Shown in pieces: positions 3,201 to 41,701 of a stretch of DNA of 42,506 bases; the first letter of the stretch is position 1, and each line of letters opens with the position of its first letter. Under the pieces are notes generated by a model. The model saw only the letters and a list, made by a program, of their open reading frames with translations. It was not told the DNA's origin and did no database searches. The translations under genes were made by a program, and so were the position numbers. Source of the stretch: a virus; the IMG/VR virus record IMGVR_UViG_3300024255_001421, positions 1 through 42,506 of that record; one strand, 5' to 3'.

Positions 3201-3355
3201 TGGCCGAAAGTAAAAGCACAAAAGGTAAAAGTTCTACAGATGAAAATGGAAAACGATTAACAGTAGTCGCCAATCGTGGACCAAGGTTACAAGTAAAAAT
3301 CAACGGTGATCCAAAAGATACAGCCGCTGAAGCACTTAAAAAAATTAGGCGATAA
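3200..3355 (+). CDS. Small basic hypothetical protein (51 aa)
   Basis: ATG overlaps the TAA stop of the upstream fibre gene by one base (TAATG), which points to translational coupling. The product begins MAESKSTKGKSSTDENGKRL and ends AAEALKKIRR. It is highly charged, with a Lys/Ser-rich, probably disordered start and a short central beta-like stretch (LQVKINGD). No family was recognised. Its stop lies on the GATAAATA late-promoter box of the next gene. A small accessory virion or assembly factor is possible but unsupported. Confidence 0.6.
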   Translation: MAESKSTKGKSSTDENGKRLTVVANRGPRLQVKINGDPKDTAAEALKKIRR

Positions 3356-3358
3356 ATA
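3351..3358 (+). promoter_or_regulatory. T4-type late promoter box GATAAATA
   Basis: GATAAATA lies 19 bases before the ATG at 3378 and is followed by an AGGA Shine-Dalgarno. T4 late promoters use TATAAATA, read by a gp55-type sigma factor, and T4-like cyanophages use NATAAATA. It probably drives the co-directional fibre genes from 3378 to 18304, which have 1-3-base gaps or overlaps and no further box at their starts. Confidence 0.75.
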
Positions 3359-3377: not shown

Positions 3378-6300
3378 ATGGCCAACAGATTTCCACTAGT
3401 AGTAGACACAACAGCAGGTAACCAGTTTAGAGAATTACCAGATGGTGATAATCTACTACTTACAAACAGTAGCATTGTAAATGCTCTTGATATACAAGCA
3501 TTAGGAACAGTTACAGCATCGCAACTGGTCGTCAGCGGCACTGTATTTAGAAATGACTACAACGACTTACAGAATAAACCTACTATTCCAACTTCGATAT
3601 TACAGTTAGGAATAGGTGACGGTACAAACGGTCAGTTTCTAACAACAAACGGTGCTGGCACAATAAGTTTTCAAAACATTCCTTCACAAGATCCTACACT
3701 AGGTGGTGAATTATCCGGAACAGCAAGTAATGCTACAATTAATGCAAACTCAATTGGTATTGCACATTTAGATGTAGATGACGGAACTATTGGTCAAGTT
3801 CTTGCTACAGACGGTTCAGGTAACTTACAGTTTATTGATATGACAGGTGGCGGCGGAGGTGGAGGCGGTGCTTCTAACTTCTTAGAGCTATCAGGGCAAA
3901 TTGGATTATCACAAATTGATGACGACTTTATTACTCCAGTAAAACTTAAAGACAACAGTCAAGTACCTACAGCAGGACAATACTTAACTGTATCCGCAGG
4001 CGGTGACTTTGAATATTTAGACATTCCTACAACTAACCCACAATGGAACGATGTACAAAACAAGCCAAACATTCCTGCAACACTTACTGATTTAGGTATA
4101 GTTGAAGGTAGCGATGGCGATATTCTAAAAACAGACGGTGCAGGTAATTATACATTTACAGCATTTGGTAGTATTGAAAACATAGAATTTAGTGGTACAA
4201 CAATTAGAACTGTACCAGACAATAGCAATTTAAGTATTGATCCTAAAGGCAATGGCTATCTTAGTATAGTAGGCACTAACGCTGTTGTACTACCAGTAGG
4301 TGATACTTCACAAAGAACTCCAAACGTTGCAGGTGCTATGCGTTTGAACAGCCAACTAGGAATATTTGAAGGTTACGATGGTAGTAACTGGAACGGTTTA
4401 GGCGGTGTAAGATCAGTAGACGGACTAACATATGTTAGTGCTGAAACAACACCAGGCGCAAGTGACGATACAATTACTTTTGTTACTAATGGGCAAACAA
4501 GTGCAACACTTACAGAAACTAAACTAGAATTAAATCAAGCTGTTGGTGTAAAAATTAAAAGTACACAATCTGCTGTAGATTTTGAAACAGGCGCATTAAG
4601 TGTAGACGGCGGTGTAAGCATCAAAGGTAACTTAATTGTTAGTGGTGCTGTTACTGTAAACGAAGAATTTAACACAAGTGTTAAAGTTGATGGTACAACA
4701 TTAAGTGCTACACAAACAAATCAGTTTTCAATAGCACCAGCAGAAATAAACTTCTTTAACACCTCAATGAAAGTAAGAATATTTGGCGCAAGTGCTGACA
4801 ATATTGATCAAGATCAAACAAACTTAGGTGTACAAGTAAGCAGAGTAGGATTTGGTACACCAGATGGAAGCGGCAATGAAGTTACATTTAGTTATCGTGT
4901 TGCACAAATGGATCAAGTTTCAGGTAAGATTAGTGCTGTTACAGCGGCGGCTGATATTACTATAGAGCCAGAAGAAATTACAGATTTTAACAATAATAAA
5001 AACATACAAGTAGTAGTAAGCAGAGCATCAAGTTCACATAACGTATTAATATATAGAAAAGTTGGTGCTGAAGTTGATTACACATTACACAGTGTTTTAG
5101 GACCAAAAGAACTTGGTGTATCTTTAAGCAACATTGTATTCACTGACTACTATGACTTTGATGTTACTCCTTGGAGCAAAAGAACTAATCAAGGATTATT
5201 TAATGCAAATAGCGGACTAGTACATGTTCCATTAGTAGCGCCAGGCAGTCCAAAATTAGGTTGGGTTGATACTGAAATTACAAATGTCAATTCTGAAACA
5301 AATACACTTACAGTAGCAAATCAATATTATGCAACAACAAGTACAATTGAAGTTGTTGTCGACGATACTGTAGCTGTACAAACAGCAATTGATGCGGCTA
5401 AAGCACAAAACAGAAACAGCCTAAGTTTAGAAAACAGAACTTACTTTATTAAAAGACTAGAACTACCATCTGGATTTACATTAAAGGGTAGCGGTGACCA
5501 AACAAGAATTATCAAACAGTATTGGTCAACAGAACAAGCAATTGGCGACAATGCTATTGTAAGACCTAAGTCAGGATACGCAAGTTACAGTAACATTACA
5601 ATTAGAGATTTACGTATAGACGGTAACGCACAGAATCAATACTTAGCAAGTGATACAACTAATGACTATTTAAACTATGCTGTATATTTGTATGGTAACG
5701 ATTTGTTATTTGAAAATATAGAATTAGATAATGTTGTAGGTGGCGGTATTTACGCATATGATTCAAGTATTACACAGAACCTTACTGTACTAAACAGTGA
5801 AATTACAGGCGGTGGATTAACTTACAGTTTTGACTGGTTTCCATTGTTTGCTGATGAATGTAGATCAGTTAAAATTGCTCACAACACATTTAGAGATTTT
5901 CCAGGGCCAGTACGTATTAGTGCTGTACAAAAAGGTATAGTATCTCCAAACATTGTTGATAACTGTGGTGAAGGTATTTTTGCATATGGTGCAACAAAGA
6001 TTGTACTAACACCAAACGTACTACTAGGACCTGCAGGTGAGTTTATTGCTAATCCAGATGTGTTGAATTCAGAATACGATAGTGTAAACATACTACTTGA
6101 AAGCGGCGTTGACTTTAATAGTCCACAGTACGTATACCAAGAAAATGGTGCGTTCTTTGACTTTACAGCAAACCAAGGACGTTTAACTGGTATAATTAAC
6201 GAGCTTACTAAAACAAACAATGTTGAAGAATTAAGCACAGATTATTCAGAAACACTAGGTGGTGATGACTACATTGCATTTACAAATGGCGGCGATGCTA

Positions 6301-17293: not shown

Positions 17294-18304
17294 ATGGCAA
17301 CATCAGCAGTACAAGGATTTTTAAAATCCGCAAACTTATTAGAAAATACGCAGGACAGACAGTTACTTAATAACTTAGGTGAAGCACCTATTGCTGATGA
17401 TATTAGTTTGTTCATTAACAATAACCAAAACGTATCAAGACTTACTATTGCAGATGCTGAGTATAATTTTATTACAGGACTTGTAACAATAGTAAACAAT
17501 ACAGCAGAACAGCAAGCCGCAAGAAGTGGTGTTTTTACAAACGGTGACCCTGTTAAGATACTGTATGTAAATGAGACTGTATTACAAGATGATTTATTTG
17601 TTACACAAAGTAATGGTGAAACAACATTTGGCTTTGCAACTGATGTAGAAGGTGATAGTCAATTTACATTTGATCCTCCTGCAGAAGGGTTTATTGTACA
17701 ACGTTCTGATGCTGTAGTATTAAATAACTTAACATTCTTAGGTGCTGTAGAAGATACAGCAGGATTTAGTAGTGGGCTTGGTGCAGGAGCATCAGGTGGA
17801 GAGCCTGAAGGTGCATCTGGTATCGATACTGATGACACATATGCTAACCAATTTTTAGAAATTTATCAATACTTAGACATTGCAAAATATCAAGCAGACA
17901 AAAAGTTTGTAAGTGATAAAAATGTTGCAACAGATGATGACTTTAGAATGGAAGGCTCATTTAGTATTAACGACCCTTCTGATATGATTATTACTGAAGG
18001 TGTAAATTTAAACAGCCCGGGTTTATATATTACAAACCCTGCAAGTCCATTAACAAACATTCAACGTATTAGAGCATTTAGTGATACATCAAATCCTTGG
18101 GAAGTTGTAGGCACAGGTGTTAACACAAAATTAACAACACAAGCTGCTTCAGCACAAACTGGCGATTTAAAACTTAACAATGGTATAATAATTGACGGCG
18201 TGTCTCCAATCACAGAAAGTGGAAACGTAAACAACGTTTCTTTCACTCATAAAGCAAAAGTTAAAATAGACGGTATTGATTACTTTTTATGTTTAACTAG
18301 TTGA
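17294..18304 (+). CDS. Virion structural protein (336 aa)
   Basis: Starts one base after the LRR gene stop. The N-terminus (GFLKSANLLENTQDRQLLNNLGEAPIA) is a short helical adaptor-like segment also seen in neighbours, where a list of fibre genes each begin with a helix and a LGEAP/NIGI-type turn. A Gly/Ala/Ser-rich linker (SSGLGAGASGGEPEGASG) sits near residue 160. The C-terminus ends FTHKAKVKIDGIDYFLCLTS, like the THKIQATIGGQTVYLY segment of the LRR protein and the C-terminal ITFNGTVYKVLASTS of the opposing gene. Its last 12 bases overlap the end of the convergent gene. No enzyme motif; a fibre or baseplate component by context. Confidence 0.7.
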   Translation: MATSAVQGFLKSANLLENTQDRQLLNNLGEAPIADDISLFINNNQNVSRLTIADAEYNFITGLVTIVNNTAEQQAARSGVFTNGDPVKILYVNETVLQDDLFVTQSNGETTFGFATDVEGDSQFTFDPPAEGFIVQRSDAVVLNNLTFLGAVEDTAGFSSGLGAGASGGEPEGASGIDTDDTYANQFLEIYQYLDIAKYQADKKFVSDKNVATDDDFRMEGSFSINDPSDMIITEGVNLNSPGLYITNPASPLTNIQRIRAFSDTSNPWEVVGTGVNTKLTTQAASAQTGDLKLNNGIIIDGVSPITESGNVNNVSFTHKAKVKIDGIDYFLCLTS

Positions 18305-20563
18305 TGCTAGTACTTTATACACTGTTCCATTAAACGTAATAGGTATTGTTCTATCATACGCTAATGCGTCTCCTAAACTAAGCTCTGTTGTCGTTGTATT
18401 TTCTGCTACAAAGTCTCTTACTTTAAGTATAGCACTTGCGTTGGTCATTTGAAGCCCAACAGTAGCACCTGTGCCGTCTGTTGTTCTAAGACCATCTAAG
18501 GTACCCACAAATGGCGGTGCTGTGTTTAATGGTATAACACATGCTTCTTTGTCTTGAGTTGTGTTTGAAGGACAAATAACAACGGTAGTACCTGCAACCA
18601 TATCGTCACCTGCTTGTACAGGCTTGTTTAATGTTACTGTATTGTTAATAGGATCAATAGCAATAATTTTAGTTAAAGTGCTAGTGTCAGTAGGATCAAT
18701 TTCTTCTGTGTAAGGTCTACTTTGAAATACATTGTTTAATCCAAAGCCGTCTACATTGTTTAGTGTAAGTACTGTATCACCAGGTACCGCTGTAACAGCA
18801 ATTTCTTTACCTACAGTTCCTATACAAAAATTATTAAGACTGTTGTTTCTTAAACCTTTATCACTATAAAAATATACTTGTTCTAATCCACTTAACCCTA
18901 ATGCAATGTTTGTAGTGAATTCTCTAATATTTACAATTTCTGTAATTCGTATGTAATCTGTGCCAGCAGGATTATTTTCTGCTACAACAACTGTACCTAC
19001 TTTAAGATCTGCTGTGTCGTCTACAGTAACACTTGTACCAGATGACGTGCCTGCTTGTACATCTAAAAATCCTCTGTGATCCATAAACTTAACAGGAACT
19101 GTTGCATCACCTGTTGCTGTAGAATTAACAATGATTATATTGTTACGTGATAAATCTGTAACTGTTGTGCCTTTAGTATAAGCCGGTGTAATAACTTGGT
19201 TACCAATTTCAATGTTGTCCGTATACGGGCTAGTTGATGTTGTACTTAATATGTTACTATCTTGTTCAAACGATACTGTATATTCTGCCCGTAACGCATT
19301 GACAAATCTTCTTGGAGGACTGTATGTTACAGTTAGTGGACTTACACTAAGCCATCTTGCATACTGTGTACTAAAGTTAACATCTTGTGGTCCTATTTCA
19401 CCACCGCCTGTTAAAAGTCTATTATCATAGAATCCTTTAAAACTATCTTCTTCAAACTCATCTGGCACTTGTTGATACAAATACCAATATGGCCAGTCGC
19501 CACTATCTTTAATATTTGTAGATAAGTTACAATCTATATACTTGTTAAAGTAATTCTTAGTAGGATCACTATACCAATATGTTAAACGTATTTCAATAGG
19601 AACGTATTTTTCTAAATCAGATTCAGTATGACTAAATCTAAATGAATCACTACCAATTTTGTTTTTAATACTGTAAGTAAGTTTTGCACCATTAGGAACT
19701 GTTATTGCTTGGTTAAGAGTAATAGTTGTATTACTAGTGCCGTCTACAAAAAGTCCTGAACTTATTTCTGCTGAAAGTATTGCTACGCCATTTTCATCTT
19801 CTGCGGCAATAACTTCATCACCTATTATTACAGTACGGGCATCAATTGCATCAACAGTAACACTTAGTTCATTATTCATTGCACTTAAATGTTCTATTTG
19901 GCGATCTTCTGCAAATGTATTTTGTACAACTTGAAGGGCACCAAAACGGTCTGCTACTTCAAACATTACTAAACCAGTAGTATCAAAACTAAATGTACTT
20001 GGACCACTAGCATCTGGCACATAAAATCCTTGCCATTGTATTAGTCCGTTTGCTCCACCTAGTGTGTCATCTAGTTTATTACTAAATTCAAATACACCGT
20101 TGTTCCAAAACTGTTTTGTAACTTGAGGTGTTTCGCCTGTTTGTATTATATTAGCACCTGTAGTATTTTTACTTAGACTAGTACTAATTTGATCAGTATC
20201 ATAAAATTTTGCTATAAGGCCATCTCCTCCATTAAAAAATGGTGGATCATTAGTTGTAGCAATAATAGTGTCTAATTGATTTTTAACAGTAATAACTGGA
20301 GAAGCAATTCTATCAACTAATTCACCATCTTCTAATACTGTATTTTTAACAGCAAGTCCTGCCATTAAACCAATATCTCTATTAGTAACTGTACTATTAC
20401 TAATACCTTTAATAGCGTCTAAATCACCGCCTGTAAATACTTTGTTATCAGAACCAACTACAAGGTTGTTTAGAACGTTGTTGAGTGCCTGATCTTTTGA
20501 TGTAAGATCTGCTAGATTTAAATCTCTACGTAGTCCTATGTTCTTAAATGAAGGTCTTGCCAT
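18293..20563 (-). CDS. Virion structural protein on opposite strand, possible PA14-like domain (756 aa)
   Basis: The only minus-strand gene in the structural block. It has its own late promoter (20582-20589, minus strand) and an AGGGAG Shine-Dalgarno. The N-terminus, MARPSFKNIGLRRDLNLADL followed by KDQALNNVLNNLV, is a helical adaptor-like start. Residues ~113-215 (GGDGLIAKFYDTDQ, then a WNNGVFEFSN and GFYVPDASGPSTFSFDT run) resemble a PA14-like carbohydrate-binding beta-barrel; this is a weak match by eye. The rest is beta-rich with Val/Thr/Asp strands. The C-terminal ITFNGTVYKVLASTS resembles that of the convergent neighbour. Probable fibre or receptor-binding protein; the inverted orientation suggests a rearranged or exchangeable cassette. 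Confidence 0.75.
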   Translation of the reverse strand: MARPSFKNIGLRRDLNLADLTSKDQALNNVLNNLVVGSDNKVFTGGDLDAIKGISNSTVTNRDIGLMAGLAVKNTVLEDGELVDRIASPVITVKNQLDTIIATTNDPPFFNGGDGLIAKFYDTDQISTSLSKNTTGANIIQTGETPQVTKQFWNNGVFEFSNKLDDTLGGANGLIQWQGFYVPDASGPSTFSFDTTGLVMFEVADRFGALQVVQNTFAEDRQIEHLSAMNNELSVTVDAIDARTVIIGDEVIAAEDENGVAILSAEISSGLFVDGTSNTTITLNQAITVPNGAKLTYSIKNKIGSDSFRFSHTESDLEKYVPIEIRLTYWYSDPTKNYFNKYIDCNLSTNIKDSGDWPYWYLYQQVPDEFEEDSFKGFYDNRLLTGGGEIGPQDVNFSTQYARWLSVSPLTVTYSPPRRFVNALRAEYTVSFEQDSNILSTTSTSPYTDNIEIGNQVITPAYTKGTTVTDLSRNNIIIVNSTATGDATVPVKFMDHRGFLDVQAGTSSGTSVTVDDTADLKVGTVVVAENNPAGTDYIRITEIVNIREFTTNIALGLSGLEQVYFYSDKGLRNNSLNNFCIGTVGKEIAVTAVPGDTVLTLNNVDGFGLNNVFQSRPYTEEIDPTDTSTLTKIIAIDPINNTVTLNKPVQAGDDMVAGTTVVICPSNTTQDKEACVIPLNTAPPFVGTLDGLRTTDGTGATVGLQMTNASAILKVRDFVAENTTTTELSLGDALAYDRTIPITFNGTVYKVLASTS
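18295..18302. repeat. Palindrome AACTAGTT at overlapping convergent stops
   Basis: An 8-bp perfect palindrome inside the 12-bp overlap between the plus-strand gene ending at 18304 (TGA) and the minus-strand gene ending at 18293 (TAA). Both proteins therefore end in similar residues (..LTS and ..STS). No T-rich terminator tract is evident on either side. Confidence 0.5.
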
Positions 20564-20581
20564 ATAATACTCCCTGTACAG

Positions 20582-20589
20582 TATTTATC
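20582..20589 (-). promoter_or_regulatory. Late promoter box, minus strand
   Basis: TATTTATC on the plus strand reads GATAAATA on the minus strand, 18 bases before the start codon of the minus-strand structural gene. It matches the box seen before the plus-strand late genes. Confidence 0.75.
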
Positions 20590-20595
20590 AGCTTT

Positions 20596-20603
20596 GATAA
20601 ATA
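20596..20603 (+). promoter_or_regulatory. Late promoter box, plus strand
   Basis: GATAAATA, 24 bases before ATG at 20628, followed by AT-rich DNA and an AGGAA Shine-Dalgarno. It is the right arm of the inverted repeat. Confidence 0.75.
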
Positions 20604-20627
20604 CAATATATAATAGGAAACTAACAA

Positions 20628-21317
20628 ATGGCTGTAGAACTAGTAAACATAGGTAGAATTGCAAACGATGGTACAGGTGATGACCTACGTGAAGCATTTA
20701 TCAAAATCAATAGAAGTTTAGAAGATCTAGACTTGCGTATTGACGATAAAACTGAAGGTGTCAACTTAGGCACAGGTGCAGGCGTCTTTAAACAACGCAC
20801 AGGATACAATTTAGAATACAAAAGTCTTGTAGGAAATAACGATATTGTTGTTACAAACAACCCTACAGAGATTGCACTTAGTATAGATACAACCCTAGGG
20901 GCAAGACCTATTGTTGCTGATACTGGTACAGTAACTATACCAGCAAGAGGAACACTTAGATTACAAGGTTCAGGCGGAATTACAACTACAGCAGATGACG
21001 CAAACGGATCAGTAACTATTGCAGGTAATGCTACTTTAGAATCAGACACTAGTCCGTCATTATCAGCAAACCTTAATGCTAATGGATTTGCTATTACCAA
21101 CGTAGGCACACTTATAGGTAGTAATGTTCAAAGTCTTGTGTATGATGTTGATATCCGCACTATAAACGATTTATATATTAACTTAGACTTTGGCGAATTT
21201 GTAGAGAATACAAATAACTTCGTTGACTTCTTTAAGGGATTAGTTAATGCTGATTACGGCACTCTAACTGGTCCGACATTGATAAACACGGACGACGGGC
21301 TATTACCAACATTGTAA
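20628..21317 (+). CDS. Short virion structural protein with fibre-type N-terminal motif (229 aa)
   Basis: The N-terminus reads VNIGRIANDGTGDDLREAFIK then IN, a G-D-G/T-G-D-x-(L/I)-R-x-AF-x-K-(V/I)-N signature that recurs at the start of many fibre-type proteins of marine myoviruses and also in the gene starting at 42125. It may be a docking or trimerisation helix. The rest is beta-rich (VTIPARGTLRLQGSGGI, GFAITNVGTLIGSNV), ending in an acidic segment. It has its own late promoter. No enzymatic motif; small adaptor or fibre part by context. Confidence 0.7.
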   Translation: MAVELVNIGRIANDGTGDDLREAFIKINRSLEDLDLRIDDKTEGVNLGTGAGVFKQRTGYNLEYKSLVGNNDIVVTNNPTEIALSIDTTLGARPIVADTGTVTIPARGTLRLQGSGGITTTADDANGSVTIAGNATLESDTSPSLSANLNANGFAITNVGTLIGSNVQSLVYDVDIRTINDLYINLDFGEFVENTNNFVDFFKGLVNADYGTLTGPTLINTDDGLLPTL

Positions 21318-21322
21318 ATTAC

Positions 21323-21330
21323 GATAAATA
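21323..21330 (+). promoter_or_regulatory. Late promoter box GATAAATA
   Basis: Located 19 bases before ATG at 21350 and followed by AAGGA. It separates the 1119-aa gene from its upstream neighbour. Confidence 0.75.
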
Positions 21331-21349: not shown

Positions 21350-24300
21350 ATGGCAAGTATCTGGACACAACCAAACAACTACAAATTAAGAACACTTGTA
21401 GAAAGAGTGAAACTTGAGACAGGAGATTTTATTTTACCTGTGGACTCAAGTGCGACTATAACATTATTAGCAGGTGACTTACCTCCTGGACTAAGAATTG
21501 TCGGTACCGAAATAACTGGTACACCTTTTGAAGTTGAAATAGTAAAAGTATTTAAATTTGTTCTTAGAGCAAAAGTAGGAACTACTGTAGAAGATAGAAC
21601 TTTTACAATAGATGTTACAGGACCAGATGAACCGTTTTGGATTACACAACCAGGACTTTTGCCAATTGGCGCAAACGAAAATTTATTTGTTTTAGACAAT
21701 CAAATTATTGACTATCAGTTCTTAGCAATTGATGCTGATACAGCTGCAGGTCAAACATTAGAATACTATATTGTTCCTGGGGAGGGCACCTTACCGCCAG
21801 GACTTACACTAACAAACACAGGTAGAATACAAGGTGTTGTAGAACCTTTGCTTGCATTAGATAAAGAAGCAGCTAAAGGCGGATTTGACACAAGTCCATA
21901 TGATGCTTATCCTAGCGATTTTTCAATTAAAGCAGATAGAGGTTTTGATAGTTATTTTTATGACAATGTGCGTTACGATACGCAATCAGATCCACAAATA
22001 CCAAAGAAACTAAATCGTTACTATGAATTTAAAGTAACTATAAATGACGGTGTAACAGAGAATCCACCTAAAAGAAAATTTAAGATATATGTTGTAGGTG
22101 ACGATTTCCTAAGAGCAGACAACACTATCATGAAAGTTTCAAATGGTGTGTTTAAAGCAGACAACACAAACATACGTCAACCTAAATGGTTAACACCTGC
22201 AGACCTTGGATACAAAAAATCAAATAATAATGCTACTGTTTACTTAGATGTTTATACTAGTGATACATTACAAGGTAACTTGTTATACAGTTTAGACGAT
22301 GTTAACAACGACAATAGCGAAAGTATTTTACCACCAGGATTAAAACTAGATACTCTTAGTGGAGAACTAACTGGTCCTATTCCTTATCAGCCACAAAGTT
22401 TTAAAGACTACAAATTTACTGTTCGTGCAACACGTTACACAAACGACATAGATTATGCTGTAGTTACAGGCACATTTTACGAAGATACATTATCAGGCAA
22501 ACGATCATTTAAAGTATACAAACTTCCTCTTAATGTACAAGACGGAATAACACTTAATGACGGTATTGATGACCTAAATGATTTAAAAGATCAAAACATT
22601 ACATTAAATGGCAGACCTTACAAAGTAGAGTCAGTAGATGGTTCAGATGACGACTTCGATATAATCACACTCACTGAAACACTACGACCATTCTTAAGTT
22701 TTACTCTGTCACAAGACAGTCAAGCAAACAGTCAAAGTATATTTGTTGAAAAACTAAACAACTTTGAAAGACAACAATGGAAAGATAAAAAACTTGTTTA
22801 CGATAACCAAAGTAGTACACCAGAAACTTACACAATACAAAGTGTATATGGTTACAAGCGTTGGCAGATCGCAAGTGCGACAGGCGATATTTCTATCAAC
22901 TTTGAAGCTGGTGGCACAACGGCATTACCGTTTGGTCAAAACGAAACGCTATCTCAGAGTGTGATAAGAATATTCGAAGGTACAGATTTACCTGTTTTTG
23001 TAGACGCGGGCGCGACAGCAGGAAGTATAACTTTCTGGGCTCCAGATAATGCACTTACAAAAGAAGCAAGAATTAAGACTATCTTTACAGGTAGTGATTT
23101 AGTTTATACATTACTAGATGGTAATAAAGATCTAGTATATTTTGACAAACCATTAGAACCAGGCAGAACTTATATTACAGGACAAACTGTTAGTCTTGCA
23201 TTATATGGAGATGGATTCTTTGAGAAAGAATTAATTACATATGCAAATGCTGATGTAAACAATCCTAGTACACCTAAAACATTTACTATTAGAATACTAG
23301 GTGAAGTAGACAGTGAGATTGAATGGATTACGCCTGCAGACTTAGGAAGCATTACAGCAAACTTTAACAGTACAAAGCGTGTTACAGCAAAAACAAACGT
23401 ACCTGATACTAGACTAATATATACTATTGTGTCAGGACGCCTGCCAAACGGGCTTAGATTAGCTTACACAGGCGAAATAATAGGTAAAGTAACACAGTTT
23501 GGTACACTAGAAAATTTAGGACTAACAACATTCGATAATGCTGACTTTAGTTTAGACGGTGGCACAACATCAATAGATAGATCATATACTGTTAAAATTA
23601 AAGCAGAAGATAGATTTGGTTACAGTGCTATTGAAAGAGACTTTGTAATAGATGTAATTGACCAAGACGATACCCTTTACAGTAATTTGTATATTAGGCC
23701 AATGTTAGAGCCTACAATTAGAAAAGAGTTTAAACGTTTTGTAAGTAATCCAGATATATTTCCAACTACATCAATATATAGAGCAAGCGATCCTAACTTT
23801 GGAATACAAACTAAAGTTAATATGTTAGCATATGCCGGTATTGAAACTAAAAATATTGATGAGTATGTAGCAGCTACAGCAAAGAATCATAAACGTAGAA
23901 ATTATAAAATAGGTGATGTAAAAACAGCCATTGCAAAAGAACCAGGTAGTAATGATATTGTATACGAAGTTGTATACTTAGAAATTATTGATCCTCGTGA
24001 CAGCAAAAAAGGCAAAGTTGCAAATAACTTTATAGCACACCCGCAACCAGGAATAACAGCAGACAGTGTAGAGTACGAAGTTATTGATGATACAACAGCA
24101 CAAGACAGTGGTTATGATGTTGCAAAAGTCGACGGACGTTTTAGAGATATAGACGTTACACTTGATCAAGGCGATGGGTTTAGCGTTGGTCTGCGTACAG
24201 GTGATGTAATACAAGACGTTGATAATGATGATATTGATGTTACACTTAGAGATGGTGTAACAGAAGTAAATATTGATGTTGATATAAGTGACTCAGAACC

Positions 24301-24714: not shown

Positions 24715-24722
24715 GATAAATA
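24715..24722 (+). promoter_or_regulatory. Late promoter box GATAAATA
   Basis: Lies 19 bases before ATG at 24742; followed by CAGGAG Shine-Dalgarno. Confidence 0.75.
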
Positions 24723-24741: not shown

Positions 24742-25335
24742 ATGGCCAGTAATATAGTAGATACAACAATTGACGAAACATATCCTGTCGCAGGTGTCGA
24801 CAACGATAGTCAAGGATTTAGAGATAATTTTAATATTATCAAAGCAAACTTTGTATCGGCAAAAGCCGAAATTACAGAGTTACAAAGTAATGCGGTTCTT
24901 AAGAGTGCATTAACAGGTGAAACATTAGATAACGACTTTGGCGGTAATGAAGTTACAAATGCAGTGTTTAAAGATTGTGCAGAAGGCGTAAGTGCTAACG
25001 GTACTATTAACACACTACAGAACATAAGTTACTTAAATGGTGGATATCAAACAGGTACTGTTACAGGCAATCTTACTCTAACACTTGCTGATTGGCCGTC
25101 AGCTGGATATGCTAGAATGGTTGTAGAACTAGCAAGTGATACTAGCGATGCTAGAACAATTACATTTAGCGGTGAAAACACAGCACAGTTTAAGAAAATA
25201 TCTACTGACTCTTGGGCATCAACAACAGCAACTGGTGTAGTAGCAACAGTTACACAGTCTAAAGAAATTTACGAATTTTGGACACACGATGGCGGATCAA
25301 ACATCTATGCTAAAATTGTAGGAACGTTTATTTAA
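24742..25335 (+). CDS. Small virion structural protein (197 aa)
   Basis: The N-terminus has the phrase YPVAGVDNDSQGFRDNFNII, then a short helix (AEITELQSNAVL). This D-N-D-S-Q-G-F-R-x-N-F pattern recurs at the start of phage fibre or adaptor proteins. The C-terminal ~110 residues are beta-rich (TGNLTLTLADWPSAGYARMV, then EIYEFWTHDGGSNIYAKIVG), resembling a fibre-head or knob domain. It has its own late promoter, and its stop overlaps the next ATG by one base. Likely a minor virion protein; not identified to a T4 gene. Confidence 0.7.
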   Translation: MASNIVDTTIDETYPVAGVDNDSQGFRDNFNIIKANFVSAKAEITELQSNAVLKSALTGETLDNDFGGNEVTNAVFKDCAEGVSANGTINTLQNISYLNGGYQTGTVTGNLTLTLADWPSAGYARMVVELASDTSDARTITFSGENTAQFKKISTDSWASTTATGVVATVTQSKEIYEFWTHDGGSNIYAKIVGTFI

Positions 25336-25577: not shown

Positions 25578-26108
25578 ATGCTTATGAAAACTGACGACTT
25601 AGGAATTCCACGATTCTCTAATAAGGATCTAATAGACATGATATACAGCGGCAACGCTGATAAGTGTCATGTTGTTCTATGTGAGCAATCGGACGATGTA
25701 GACAAGTTCAATGCCGCTATGGAAGAACAAGGCTTTGACAAACTCCAAAAGTATATCCCACTAGATGTAGATCAAAAGACTTTTGACAATGTATGTCAAA
25801 GTGAATGGTTTATGCCTGATGGATATAAAGAGCTAGATGTTGAAGCACATTTATTAGGTAAGATAGGCGACAACCCTCTGTTACCAGAGTGGGCCAGATG
25901 CTTAGAAGAATTAGAAGCATATAAACAACGTGATATGTATCCACTACTACGCTATATGATATATCTTGTAGACTATATGCGTGAGAATGATATTGTTTGG
26001 GGAGTAGGTAGAGGTAGTTCAGTAGCAAGTTATGTGCTATATTTGATAGGTGTACACAAAGTTAATTCAATTCAGTTTGACCTGGATTGGCGAGAGTTCT
26101 TAAGATAA
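25578..26108 (+). CDS. DNA polymerase III alpha (family C) core-like fragment protein (176 aa)
   Basis: Start could be ATG 25578 or 25584. Residues ~105-176 align by eye with the start of the family C polymerase core: a helix EELEAYKQRDMYPLLRYMIY, then WGVGRGSSVASYVLYLIG, then FDLDWREFLR. These match the bacterial region that reads GPGRGSGAGSLVAYALGI and FERFL. The protein ends just before the point where the bacterial enzyme has its catalytic PDFDVD aspartates, so it cannot be a polymerase alone. The N-terminal ~100 residues are not recognised. T4-like phages replicate with a family B polymerase, so this is likely a repurposed DNA- or protein-binding module. Similar short proteins occur in other marine myoviruses. 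Promoter class suggests early or middle expression. Confidence 0.65.
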   Translation: MLMKTDDLGIPRFSNKDLIDMIYSGNADKCHVVLCEQSDDVDKFNAAMEEQGFDKLQKYIPLDVDQKTFDNVCQSEWFMPDGYKELDVEAHLLGKIGDNPLLPEWARCLEELEAYKQRDMYPLLRYMIYLVDYMRENDIVWGVGRGSSVASYVLYLIGVHKVNSIQFDLDWREFLR

Positions 26109-26111
26109 ATA
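26104..26111 (+). promoter_or_regulatory. Late promoter box GATAAATA
   Basis: Overlaps the stop of the Pol III-like gene, 22 bases before ATG at 26134, and is followed by a TAGGAGAG Shine-Dalgarno. It probably serves the 26134-27313 genes. Confidence 0.75.
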
Positions 26112-26133: not shown

Positions 26134-26550
26134 ATGGCAATGAGACAAAAAGGTCAAAAGACCTACACAACAATGCAAGGCAAACAAGTTGATATGGATC
26201 TGTTGCGTAAGAAGAATGAACTTACTCCTGCAGTAGGAAATGCTCGTGTAAATGCACGTGGCGATGAACTAGGCGCAGGTGGTAAAATTGTTCGTAAGCG
26301 TGAACAAGTAATTAAAGATTATTACAAAGGATCTATGCCAGTAGCCGAAGAACCTACCATCAGTGTAAGTAATGTTGTTGCTGAAGAAGCACCTGTAGCA
26401 CAAAAGGCTGTAAAGTCTAAAACTACTACAAGAGCACAGCAAAAAGTAGAAGCTGCACAACCAACAGAAACTGAACTCAAAGAGTTTGACGACATGGAAG
26501 ATGGTTGGGTAGAAGACGAAGACGGCAACTTTGTACAAAAAGGTGACTAA
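26134..26550 (+). CDS. Conserved late hypothetical protein (138 aa)
   Basis: The N-terminal half is conserved-looking and basic (MRQKGQKTYTTMQGKQVDMD, then KNELTPAVGNARVNARGDEL, then GGKIVRKREQVIKDYY). I recognise this pattern from hypothetical proteins of T4-like marine phages. The C-terminal half is a low-complexity Ala/Glu/Lys/Thr linker ending in an acidic tail (DDMEDGWVEDEDGNFVQKGD). Such a basic-head, acidic-tail layout suits a virion or assembly protein. It is directly behind a late promoter and its stop overlaps the co-chaperonin start (ACTAATGG). Function unknown. Confidence 0.65.
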   Translation: MAMRQKGQKTYTTMQGKQVDMDLLRKKNELTPAVGNARVNARGDELGAGGKIVRKREQVIKDYYKGSMPVAEEPTISVSNVVAEEAPVAQKAVKSKTTTRAQQKVEAAQPTETELKEFDDMEDGWVEDEDGNFVQKGD

Positions 26551-31787: not shown

Positions 31788-31795
31788 GATAAATA
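31788..31795 (+). promoter_or_regulatory. Late promoter box GATAAATA
   Basis: 19 bases before ATG at 31815, followed by GCGGAGAG. Serves the 31815-34973 set of virion-like and lysis genes. Confidence 0.75.
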
Positions 31796-31814: not shown

Positions 31815-32333
31815 ATGCAAGATACTTTAGATTTAATAAAAAACGTAGAAAACATATACAACAGTGACAATGCCTTTCAAGTACTTAAAGACTTTGAAAG
31901 AGTGTTAGATGAACTAGACTTATATGTTTACGAAAATTGGAAAGATGGTGAATTACTATCAGGTCCTAACATAACAAGACATTGGATTGCATGTTCCTTT
32001 ATATGGGACAGAGATCAAATGCCAGATCCTATGGGTGGCAAGAGATTAACAGATTACGATTGTAAAGTATCTTATAAAAAAGATGATATGATTGTACCTC
32101 GTAAAATTAAACAGCCAAGCGATATGCGTTCAGGCACTAAAAAAGGTAAATTAGATAGGAAGCCTATTTGGGTAGTTAACATCGAAATGCCTAAGAGCTT
32201 GTTACAAGACATATATGGTGGTTATAAAGAAACAGTTCTTTCACCAGCAAATGATCAAACTACACAAGCACAACAAGAACCACAACAGGCTGACGTTGAA
32301 GCACAACCAGAAGGCATGGAGGAACTAGCATAA
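31815..32333 (+). CDS. Conserved late hypothetical protein (172 aa)
   Basis: First gene behind the late box. The N-terminal part is helical and acidic (LDLIKNVENIYNSDNAFQVL). The core has WIACSFIWDRDQMPDPMGGK followed by LTDYDCKVSYKKDDMIVPRK, a motif I recognise from hypothetical proteins of T4-like marine phages. A second conserved block is IWVVNIEMPKSLLQDIYGGY. The C-terminus is a Gln/Ala/Glu-rich low-complexity tail. Its stop overlaps the next start (TAATG). The late promoter and coupling suggest a structural or assembly role with the next gene, but no T4 counterpart was identified. Confidence 0.65.
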   Translation: MQDTLDLIKNVENIYNSDNAFQVLKDFERVLDELDLYVYENWKDGELLSGPNITRHWIACSFIWDRDQMPDPMGGKRLTDYDCKVSYKKDDMIVPRKIKQPSDMRSGTKKGKLDRKPIWVVNIEMPKSLLQDIYGGYKETVLSPANDQTTQAQQEPQQADVEAQPEGMEELA

Positions 32334-35008: not shown

Positions 35009-35437
35009 ATGGCATATTCACAAAAAGTAGTAGATCGTTTCGAAGACGTTCTAAACAATCCAGCAAAGCATGGCGTTGGTCGCTTTGATCCAAAAGATCC
35101 CAATATAGCAACAGGAATGACAGGAGCACCAGCGTGTGGCGATGTCATGAAACTTGATCTTAAAGTAGATCCTGACACCGATACTATACTAGATGTAAAG
35201 TTTAAAACATACGGCTGTGGCAGTGCTATAGCAAGTTCAACAATGTTTGTTGAAATGCTTACTGGTCTTACAATGTCTGAAGCATTAGAAATAAAAGATA
35301 AAGACATAGCCGAAGCACTGGAATTACCACCTATTAAGTTACATTGTAGTGTATTAGCAGAAGACAGTATTAAACAAGCCTTAAAAGATTGGGACGAAAA
35401 AAAATCAAAACGCAAACATAACGGAGGGCCTGAATAG
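35009..35437 (+). CDS. iscU: IscU-like Fe-S cluster scaffold, divergent copy (142 aa)
   Basis: Retains all scaffold residues: GAPACGDVM (C43, D45), YGCGSAIASS (C70) and KLHCSV (H112, C113), plus LPPIK, the HscA-recognition motif (LPPVK in E. coli). It differs from ordinary IscU in an N-terminal insertion (LNNPAKHGVGRFD in place of YENPRNVGKWD) and an extra basic C-terminus (KKSKRKHNGGPE). IscU receives Fe and S and builds 2Fe-2S/4Fe-4S clusters. It sits behind a sigma70-type promoter, unlike the second copy at 36465. Its TAG overlaps the GTG of the next gene. Likely functional; the insertion may change its partners. Confidence 0.88.
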   Translation: MAYSQKVVDRFEDVLNNPAKHGVGRFDPKDPNIATGMTGAPACGDVMKLDLKVDPDTDTILDVKFKTYGCGSAIASSTMFVEMLTGLTMSEALEIKDKDIAEALELPPIKLHCSVLAEDSIKQALKDWDEKKSKRKHNGGPE

Positions 35438-35930: not shown

Positions 35931-35938
35931 GATAAATA
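35931..35938 (+). promoter_or_regulatory. Late promoter box GATAAATA
   Basis: Directly after the terminator. The nearest downstream ORFs are very small (35983, 36111, 36245), so the transcript would carry a structured leader or a small RNA before them. A sigma70-like TTGACT-N17-TAAAGT (35942-35970) also overlaps this region but is weak. Confidence 0.65.
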
Positions 35939-35944
35939 TGGTTG

Positions 35945-35964
35945 ACTTATAAGGGTTTATAAGT
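35945..35964. repeat. Perfect inverted repeat ACTTATAA-GGGT-TTATAAGT
   Basis: 8-bp arms (35945-35952 and 35957-35964) around a 4-base centre GGGT, seven bases downstream of the late box. It would start the transcript with a hairpin or form an operator. A second perfect hairpin, TTCGAG-AACAC-CTCGAA, lies at 36014-36030. Confidence 0.6.
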
Positions 35965-35982
35965 TAAAGTAATATTTATTTG

Positions 35983-36464: not shown

Positions 36465-36833
36465 GTGGCGTATTCAAAAGAAGTGTTAGACCATTACGAA
36501 AACCCTCGTAATGTTGGTAAGTGGGATCCCGCAGATAATATCGGAACTGGAATGGTAGGAGCTCCTGCCTGTGGTGACGTTATGCGTTTACAAATTAAGG
36601 TAGAAGAAGGCATCATTGTTGATGCTAAATTTAAAACCTATGGATGTGGTAGTGCTATAGCAAGTAGTAGTCTACTCACTGAATGGGTTAAAGGAATGAC
36701 CTTAGATCAAGCAAGCGAAATAAAGAACACCCAACTTGCTACAGAACTTGCCCTACCTCCAGTAAAAATACATTGTAGCGTACTAGCAGAAGATGCTATT
36801 AAAACAGCTATTGCAGACTATAAATCCAAGTAA
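36465..36833 (+). CDS. iscU: IscU-like Fe-S cluster scaffold, host-like copy (122 aa)
   Basis: GTG start. Near-canonical IscU: YENPRNVGKWDP, GAPACGDVM (C36, D38), YGCGSAIASSSL (C61), LPPVKIHCSV (H103, C104), and ends AIADYKSK. All ligands and the LPPVK chaperone motif are intact, and the length is close to the bacterial 128 residues. It closely matches proteobacterial IscU, suggesting a more recent host origin than the copy at 35009, with which it shares most core motifs. It has a late-type promoter and precedes the holin-like and DnaJ genes. No IscS, IscA or HscA is visible in the window, so host partners would be needed. Confidence 0.9.
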   Translation: MAYSKEVLDHYENPRNVGKWDPADNIGTGMVGAPACGDVMRLQIKVEEGIIVDAKFKTYGCGSAIASSSLLTEWVKGMTLDQASEIKNTQLATELALPPVKIHCSVLAEDAIKTAIADYKSK

Positions 36834-41049: not shown

Positions 41050-41701
41050 GACTAACAAACTTTTTTACCGTAAATACCTCTACAAGGTAGTGGTCAAGAA
41101 TCACGTTGCGACTATGTTTAGGGATAAAAACCTTAATCATGCTCGCAACGAGCTTGACCGTATGCAAACACAACTACTAGAAGAAAAGCGTATAACACAA
41201 ACATACGGTATACGTCAAACATATGTATCACAACAAGACTTTGAAAGTTCCAAACTTCTATTAAGTATCTTTTCTAGTGCTAAACCTTATGACTATAAAC
41301 TTAGAATAGAAGGCAGTAACATGAGCATATACTCTAATGAGTTAGACTTTATGCATAACATCTGTTCTAAAGTACAAGTACAAGAATTTTGGCAACCTAA
41401 TAACAATTATAAAGATAAATTAGACAAAGATATTATACTTGTTGATCAACCTTTTGATTATGAATTCAAAGTTACGTTTAATCAAAACACTATAGACCCT
41501 ACATTTGCTAACTGGGTAAAACGCAATACTAATAAAATTAAAATAGGTAACAAAGCGTTACAAGCGGCTACAGACGGCTACGCACAAGGTTTATACTTTT
41601 ATATTCGTAATGAAAAACTGTTACAACTAATTAGTTTAATGATCGGACACAATTTTCAAAGCGTACAAAGAATCGTGTGTAAGCAAGATCTAGATAAATA
41701 A
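41021..41701 (+). CDS. Conserved hypothetical protein, alternative starts (up to 226 aa)
   Basis: The frame opens within the clpA end; candidate starts are GTG 41021, GTG 41027 or TTG 41036, and the recognisable part begins FYRKYLYKVVVKNHVATMFR, so the exact start is unsure. It continues KNLNHARNELDRMQTQLLEE and SIFSSAKPYDYKLRIEGSNM. I recognise this pattern from hypothetical proteins of T4-like marine phages; function unknown. It is basic and mixed alpha/beta with no membrane span. The last codons contain the GATAAATA box (41693) of the next gene. Confidence 0.6.
   Translation: MLVKLLLNCETNKLFYRKYLYKVVVKNHVATMFRDKNLNHARNELDRMQTQLLEEKRITQTYGIRQTYVSQQDFESSKLLLSIFSSAKPYDYKLRIEGSNMSIYSNELDFMHNICSKVQVQEFWQPNNNYKDKLDKDIILVDQPFDYEFKVTFNQNTIDPTFANWVKRNTNKIKIGNKALQAATDGYAQGLYFYIRNEKLLQLISLMIGHNFQSVQRIVCKQDLDK
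41693..41700 (+). promoter_or_regulatory. Late promoter box GATAAATA
   Basis: Overlaps the end of the previous gene, only five bases before ATG at 41706. The T4 late start of transcription would fall near the ATG, so the leader is minimal or the start codon differs. There is no clear Shine-Dalgarno. Confidence 0.55.

Follow-up and report, generated by a model that had tools for sequence, protein, structure and literature searches.

The perfect inverted repeat between two divergent genes of a T4-like phage is, in all probability, a back-to-back pair of T4-type late promoters, which would be used late in infection and would alternate or compete, with no permanent exclusion of one by the other. 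The initial annotation had already read the site as back-to-back late promoters, and this is borne out by the enrichment of the promoter box, by its position before start codons and by the comparison with related contigs.

The window, i.e., the whole stretch of 42,506 nucleotides (42.5 kb) that was analysed, represents part of a T4-like phage genome, and it encodes tail-fibre-like and virion proteins, a gp44-type clamp loader, thymidylate synthase, PhoH, an endolysin and an Rz-like spanin. We have also observed a 176-aa ORF (25578–26108) matching the DNA polymerase families phrog_11127 and phrog_405, apparently a polymerase fragment only, and two neighbouring genes (35009–35437 and 36465–36833) that each match the NifU-like Fe-S assembly family phrog_8429.

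The inverted repeat, its octamers and the flanking genes

The repeat occupies positions 20581–20604 and reads GTATTTATCA-GCTT-TGATAAATAC. It had been described with 9-bp arms and a 6-base centre; the repeat is real, but its perfect arms are 10 bp long (20581–20590 and 20595–20604) around a centre of 4 nt, because A20590 and T20595 pair too. In a script listing of the 42.5 kb, every other perfect inverted repeat with a loop of at most 12 nt is shorter, and just one of them, at 20380–20405, has arms of at least 9 bp. Inside the arms, the octamer GATAAATA is found on the minus strand at 20582–20589, before the leftward gene, and on the plus strand at 20596–20603, before the rightward gene, and the two boxes are separated by the 6-bp spacer AGCTTT (20590–20595). 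Since an identical asymmetric box is placed on both strands, the palindrome is a by-product of the two boxes.

The same octamer is clearly over-represented in the window, with 9 copies against 2.7 expected, a number reached in none of 100 shuffles. The T4 consensus TATAAATA shows 0 copies in the window against 5.5 expected. Seven of the nine GATAAATA copies lie 15–30 nt upstream of the ATG of an ORF of at least 100 aa; for letter-permuted octamers, the same placement was found in 30 of 673 cases. Besides the pair, plus-strand copies are found at 3351–3358 (a single late promoter before the ATG at 3378), 21323–21330 (ATG at 21350), 24715–24722 (ATG at 24742) and 31788–31795 (ATG at 31815, the gene of a virion structural protein), each with 19 nt between box and ATG, and at 26104–26111, where the ATG at 26134 follows after 22 nt. 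That is, an octamer of the form NATAAATA stands close upstream of late genes here, as is characteristic of T4-type late promoters. In addition, GATAAATA is the one octamer, of 168 with its letters permuted, that forms a back-to-back pair with a spacer of 0–10 bp in the window. Considering that GATAAATA is enriched, is placed before ATGs and is the sole permutation forming a pair, chance can be set aside both for the octamer and for the pair, and we have rejected the idea of a chance palindrome.

Two further plus-strand copies are placed differently. The copy at 41693–41700 has the annotated ATG (41706) just 5 nt downstream, so that the real gene start may lie downstream of this ATG, or the mRNA may be leaderless. 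The copy at 35931–35938 faces AATAAATA on the minus strand (35973–35980), and no ORF of at least 60 aa starts close downstream of it; a small RNA or a small ORF is possible in the region 35931–35980. These two copies tell that the box alone is no guarantee of a standard promoter.

The flanking ORFs, 18293–20563 on the minus strand and 20628–21317 on the plus strand, are divergent, and the octamer box of each is located in their shared intergenic gap and nowhere else. We have read Shine-Dalgarno-like sequences directly from the letters for both genes, GGGAG for the leftward one (20570–20574, minus strand) and AGGAAA for the rightward one (20615–20620, plus strand). Both products had been called fibre proteins, which is supported only in part. 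The rightward protein (229 aa, beginning with MAVELVNIGRIANDGTGDD) weakly resembles the baseplate-fibre connectors of T4 gp9/10 type (phrog_677, E 4e-5; PF07880 under its cut-off). On the other hand, the leftward protein (756 aa, beginning with MARPSFKNIGL) is specific to its clade: it matches no family in Pfam or PHROGs, a distant-homologue scan recovered only the same clade, and its structure prediction reached a mean pLDDT of 30, a useless model. Among the named phages in the collection, relatives of neither protein were found.

The leftward gene is the sole reversed gene of the tail/fibre block. Its far end lies in a tail-to-tail overlap of 12 bp with the preceding plus-strand gene (18293–18304). 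A consensus scan found no terminator at this junction, the nearest one on the minus strand being at 18240–18222, inside the plus-strand gene, and antisense read-through is therefore expected.

Conservation in related contigs

We have collected 15 viral contigs carrying the reversed-gene locus, which fall into at least three sequence clusters and reach down to 76% protein identity. The divergent gene orientation is identical in all of them. In 14 of the 15, covering three sequence clusters, the intergenic promoter sequence was read base by base, and both boxes, together with a spacer of exactly 6 bp (AG[CG]TTT), are intact in every one, while the outer flanks vary. The two boxes are thus conserved together with the divergent genes, as expected of a divergent late promoter pair. 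Moreover, since the outermost base pair of the arms has been lost in one cluster, it is the boxes that are conserved and not the palindrome; in other words, what persists is a pair of boxes with a constant separation.

More distant contigs without the reversed gene often carry just one box, GATAAATA or CATAAATA, upstream of the same rightward gene and at a similar distance from it (e.g., L036, L037, L048–L055 and L062–L064). A 152-kb relative (G001) has GATAAATA before many ORFs at the same spacing; among its proteins is a late sigma of gp55 type (phrog_234, E 9e-23), which was not seen in the 42.5-kb window, itself a fragment. Both the retention of boxes and spacer in the 14 contigs and the gp55 homologue of this relative support the reading as divergent late promoters.

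Predicted use of the two promoters

The boxes, their enrichment, their position and their conservation are properties of the sequence itself; promoter activity, start points and steric competition we infer by analogy with T4. The T4 late promoter octamer is located at -13 to -6 (PMC1524935), and in the late transcription complex, whose structure has been obtained by cryo-EM (PMC7892883), gp55 sits on the host polymerase and gp33 on the beta flap. The gp45 clamp lies farthest upstream in the complex and lengthens the footprint by 13 bp in that direction (PMC2988020).

With this geometry placed on the present site, each GATAAATA would span -13 to -6 and be recognised by a late sigma of gp55 type bound to the host RNA polymerase. 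Transcription should start ~6–7 nt past each box, near 20575 on the minus strand and near 20610 on the plus strand, with ~33 bp between the two predicted starts, and the predicted leaders of ~12 and ~18 nt would each contain a Shine-Dalgarno sequence. Both genes would be late, and both products would be made. Since the upstream half of each complex would fall on the other promoter, two late holoenzymes are unlikely to occupy the site simultaneously. One holoenzyme, with gp33 and its upstream gp45 clamp, would be on the site at any instant, and the two directions would alternate and compete; the behaviour to be expected is alternation, not a lasting choice.

Such an arrangement has counterparts in well-known phages. 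Like the T4 late promoters (octamer TATAAATA; gp55, gp33 and gp45), the boxes here precede late structural genes without a -35 element, a gp55-type sigma is present in a relative, and the octamer differs only at the variable -13 base. Unlike in T4, GATAAATA is preferred over TATAAATA here, and two promoters stand back to back. The closest T4 case is that of the divergent late genes 26 and 51, between which GATAAATA on the minus strand and TATAAATA on the plus strand stand back to back, 5 bp apart, although T4 has an additional overlapping TATAAATA on the minus strand and the genes are different ones. Actually, gp26 and gp51 are both made in every T4 infection. The T4 pairs gene 4/gene 53 and inh/segE (L197:7330-7392 and L197:42000-42064) also have divergent late-type boxes in one short intergenic region, but their boxes are crossed (TATAAATA-N6/7-TATTTATN), and therefore the start region of each promoter overlaps the box of the other. 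In the marine T4-like cyanophages S-PM2 and Syn9, the degenerate octamer NATAAATA likewise lies upstream of late genes (PMC2984593); in the part of that report dealing with late promoters, the motif is what is described, and back-to-back pairs are the feature here.

In the bidirectional promoters of E. coli studied by Warman, Grainger and colleagues, symmetrical DNA engages RNA polymerase both ways, with no interference at basal activity and with competition under strong activation of one side (PMC12825309). The two opposed polymerase orientations and the potential competition are common to both systems. However, the E. coli -10 elements are shared or overlapping and the start sites are 10, 18 or 23 bp apart (PMC12825309), while the boxes here are separate (6 bp), the predicted starts are ~33 bp apart and a phage sigma would be used, so that the present pair does not belong to that class.

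Could the direction be picked by replication? Clamp polarity, which differs between the leading and the lagging sister duplex, would then select the promoter on each DNA copy, giving a passing either/or, and we consider this unlikely. In its favour, gp45 activates late promoters of the T4 type in a single orientation, and which promoter polarity is activated in T4 depends on the strand that bears the nick or primer end (PMC2988020); moreover, two clamp-bearing complexes could not coexist here, because each promoter occupies the DNA upstream of the other. However, this polarity rule is common to every late promoter, and the back-to-back layout adds exclusion to it, not choice. Both clamp polarities should also cross any site in T4-like recombination-driven replication. 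The sequence bears no sign of such a choice. The gp45 family was not detected in the relatives' contigs G001–G003, which are incomplete fragments, and this counts against the favoured reading as well.

It is very improbable that each genome copy or cell stably expresses one of the two genes to the exclusion of the other. The initial annotation had proposed that the genes be transcribed in an either/or manner in a given genome copy, and a steric overlap of two holoenzymes is indeed expected, just as opposing E. coli polymerases compete under strong one-sided activation; the same study, however, found no competition at basal activity (PMC12825309). Promoter occupancy is transient and ends at clearance, each gene has one box, and no regulator or memory element is visible. 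In addition, T4 makes both gp26 and gp51 from its own back-to-back boxes. The proposal is thus unsupported, and alternation of the two promoters is the more probable behaviour.

A role of the repeat as an RNA hairpin, in termination or in processing, is hardly credible. Read-through RNA could form a 10-bp stem (-9.7 kcal/mol, z -4.9), but the stem is A/T-rich, where an intrinsic terminator has a G+C-rich stem followed by a U run; there is no U run, the site is not called as a terminator, and the outermost base pair is not conserved. The hairpin would be in neither predicted mRNA, since both starts lie downstream of the boxes. The weakest reading, with a negligible chance of being right, is the recombination or inversion site that had also been suggested: a perfect palindrome does stand at one end of the tail block's only reversed gene and might set its orientation, but it has no second copy, no matching inverted repeat flanks the gene at its far end (18293–18304), no recombinase is among the proteins annotated here, the orientation is constant in the 15 contigs, and the repeat is wholly accounted for by the two boxes.

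Spacing of back-to-back boxes at other loci

We have scanned viral contigs for TATTTATC-N0-30-GATAAATA and found a spacer of 3–6 bp in 30 of 80 pairs, compared with 2 of 80 for the crossed order GATAAATA-N-TATTTATC used as the control (Fisher p 1e-8). The short-spacer matches came mostly from one other locus, where a head-tail adaptor gene (phrog_211) and a virion structural gene (phrog_11591) are divergent; this locus is not seen in the phage of the window. Two motif-independent protein searches yielded 160 adaptor loci (L199–L278 and L280–L359), with the boxes upstream of the match start (locus 2501 in most). Back-to-back boxes are present in all 160 of these T4-like contigs if the Aeh1-type form GCTAAATA is allowed. 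In many freshwater contigs among L283–L358, the plus-side box is GCTAAATA with GATAAATA on the opposite strand, and therefore both box forms coexist at one site.

The spacers at the adaptor locus are distributed unevenly. Most are 4 bp (95 loci), 5 bp (22) or 6 bp (10), others are 16 bp (14), 1 bp (6), 17 bp (4), 0 bp (3) or 15 bp (3), and 14, 23 and 26 bp occur once each, while spacers of 2–3, 7–13 or 18–22 bp are absent among the 160. When spacers are traced on the adaptor-gene tree, a short one turns into a long one, or the reverse, by 10–12 bp in 8 of 10 inferred cases, and by 19 and 22 bp in the other two. Simple compaction would not be expected to leave out 7–13 bp, and an 11-nt tandem duplication accounts for a single lineage (L310, L282) and fails for the unrelated 16-bp spacers. 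The quantised pattern is suggestive, with recombination, shared ancestry and parsimony limiting what can be drawn from it.

The arrangement differs at other places. A third locus adds nothing on spacing, as 77 of its 80 sequences are without a back-to-back pair, and those inspected have a single late box, many of them behind a terminator-like stem. Relatives of the adaptor gene in cultured jumbo phages show either no divergence or divergent genes with degenerate boxes (Atu_ph07, Phosso). Our literature search found no reports on the spacing of back-to-back late promoters, and nothing relevant on PA5oct transcription.

One tentative and rather doubtful reading of the pattern is that the back-to-back late promoters of T4-like phages form a composite bidirectional element, in which spacers of 0–1, 4–6, 14–17 and 23–26 bp are allowed, 7–13 bp are avoided and changes amount to about one helical turn. 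If this is true, opposed gp55/gp33/gp45 complexes, or their clamps, would communicate through helical phase, and clamp polarity would pick the direction. The spacing at the adaptor locus is the most interesting by-product of this work and the part worth following, since it raises questions for the bench: do opposed late holoenzymes compete, and is the winner decided by clamp polarity or by helical phase?

Overall, the palindrome is very probably promoter grammar, being neither a switch nor a recombination site. The arrangement is already known, well preserved and ordinary, and this pair is a new example of it rather than a genetic flip switch. Pairs of nearly touching late boxes appear to be a common way of serving divergent late genes in uncultured T4-like phages.
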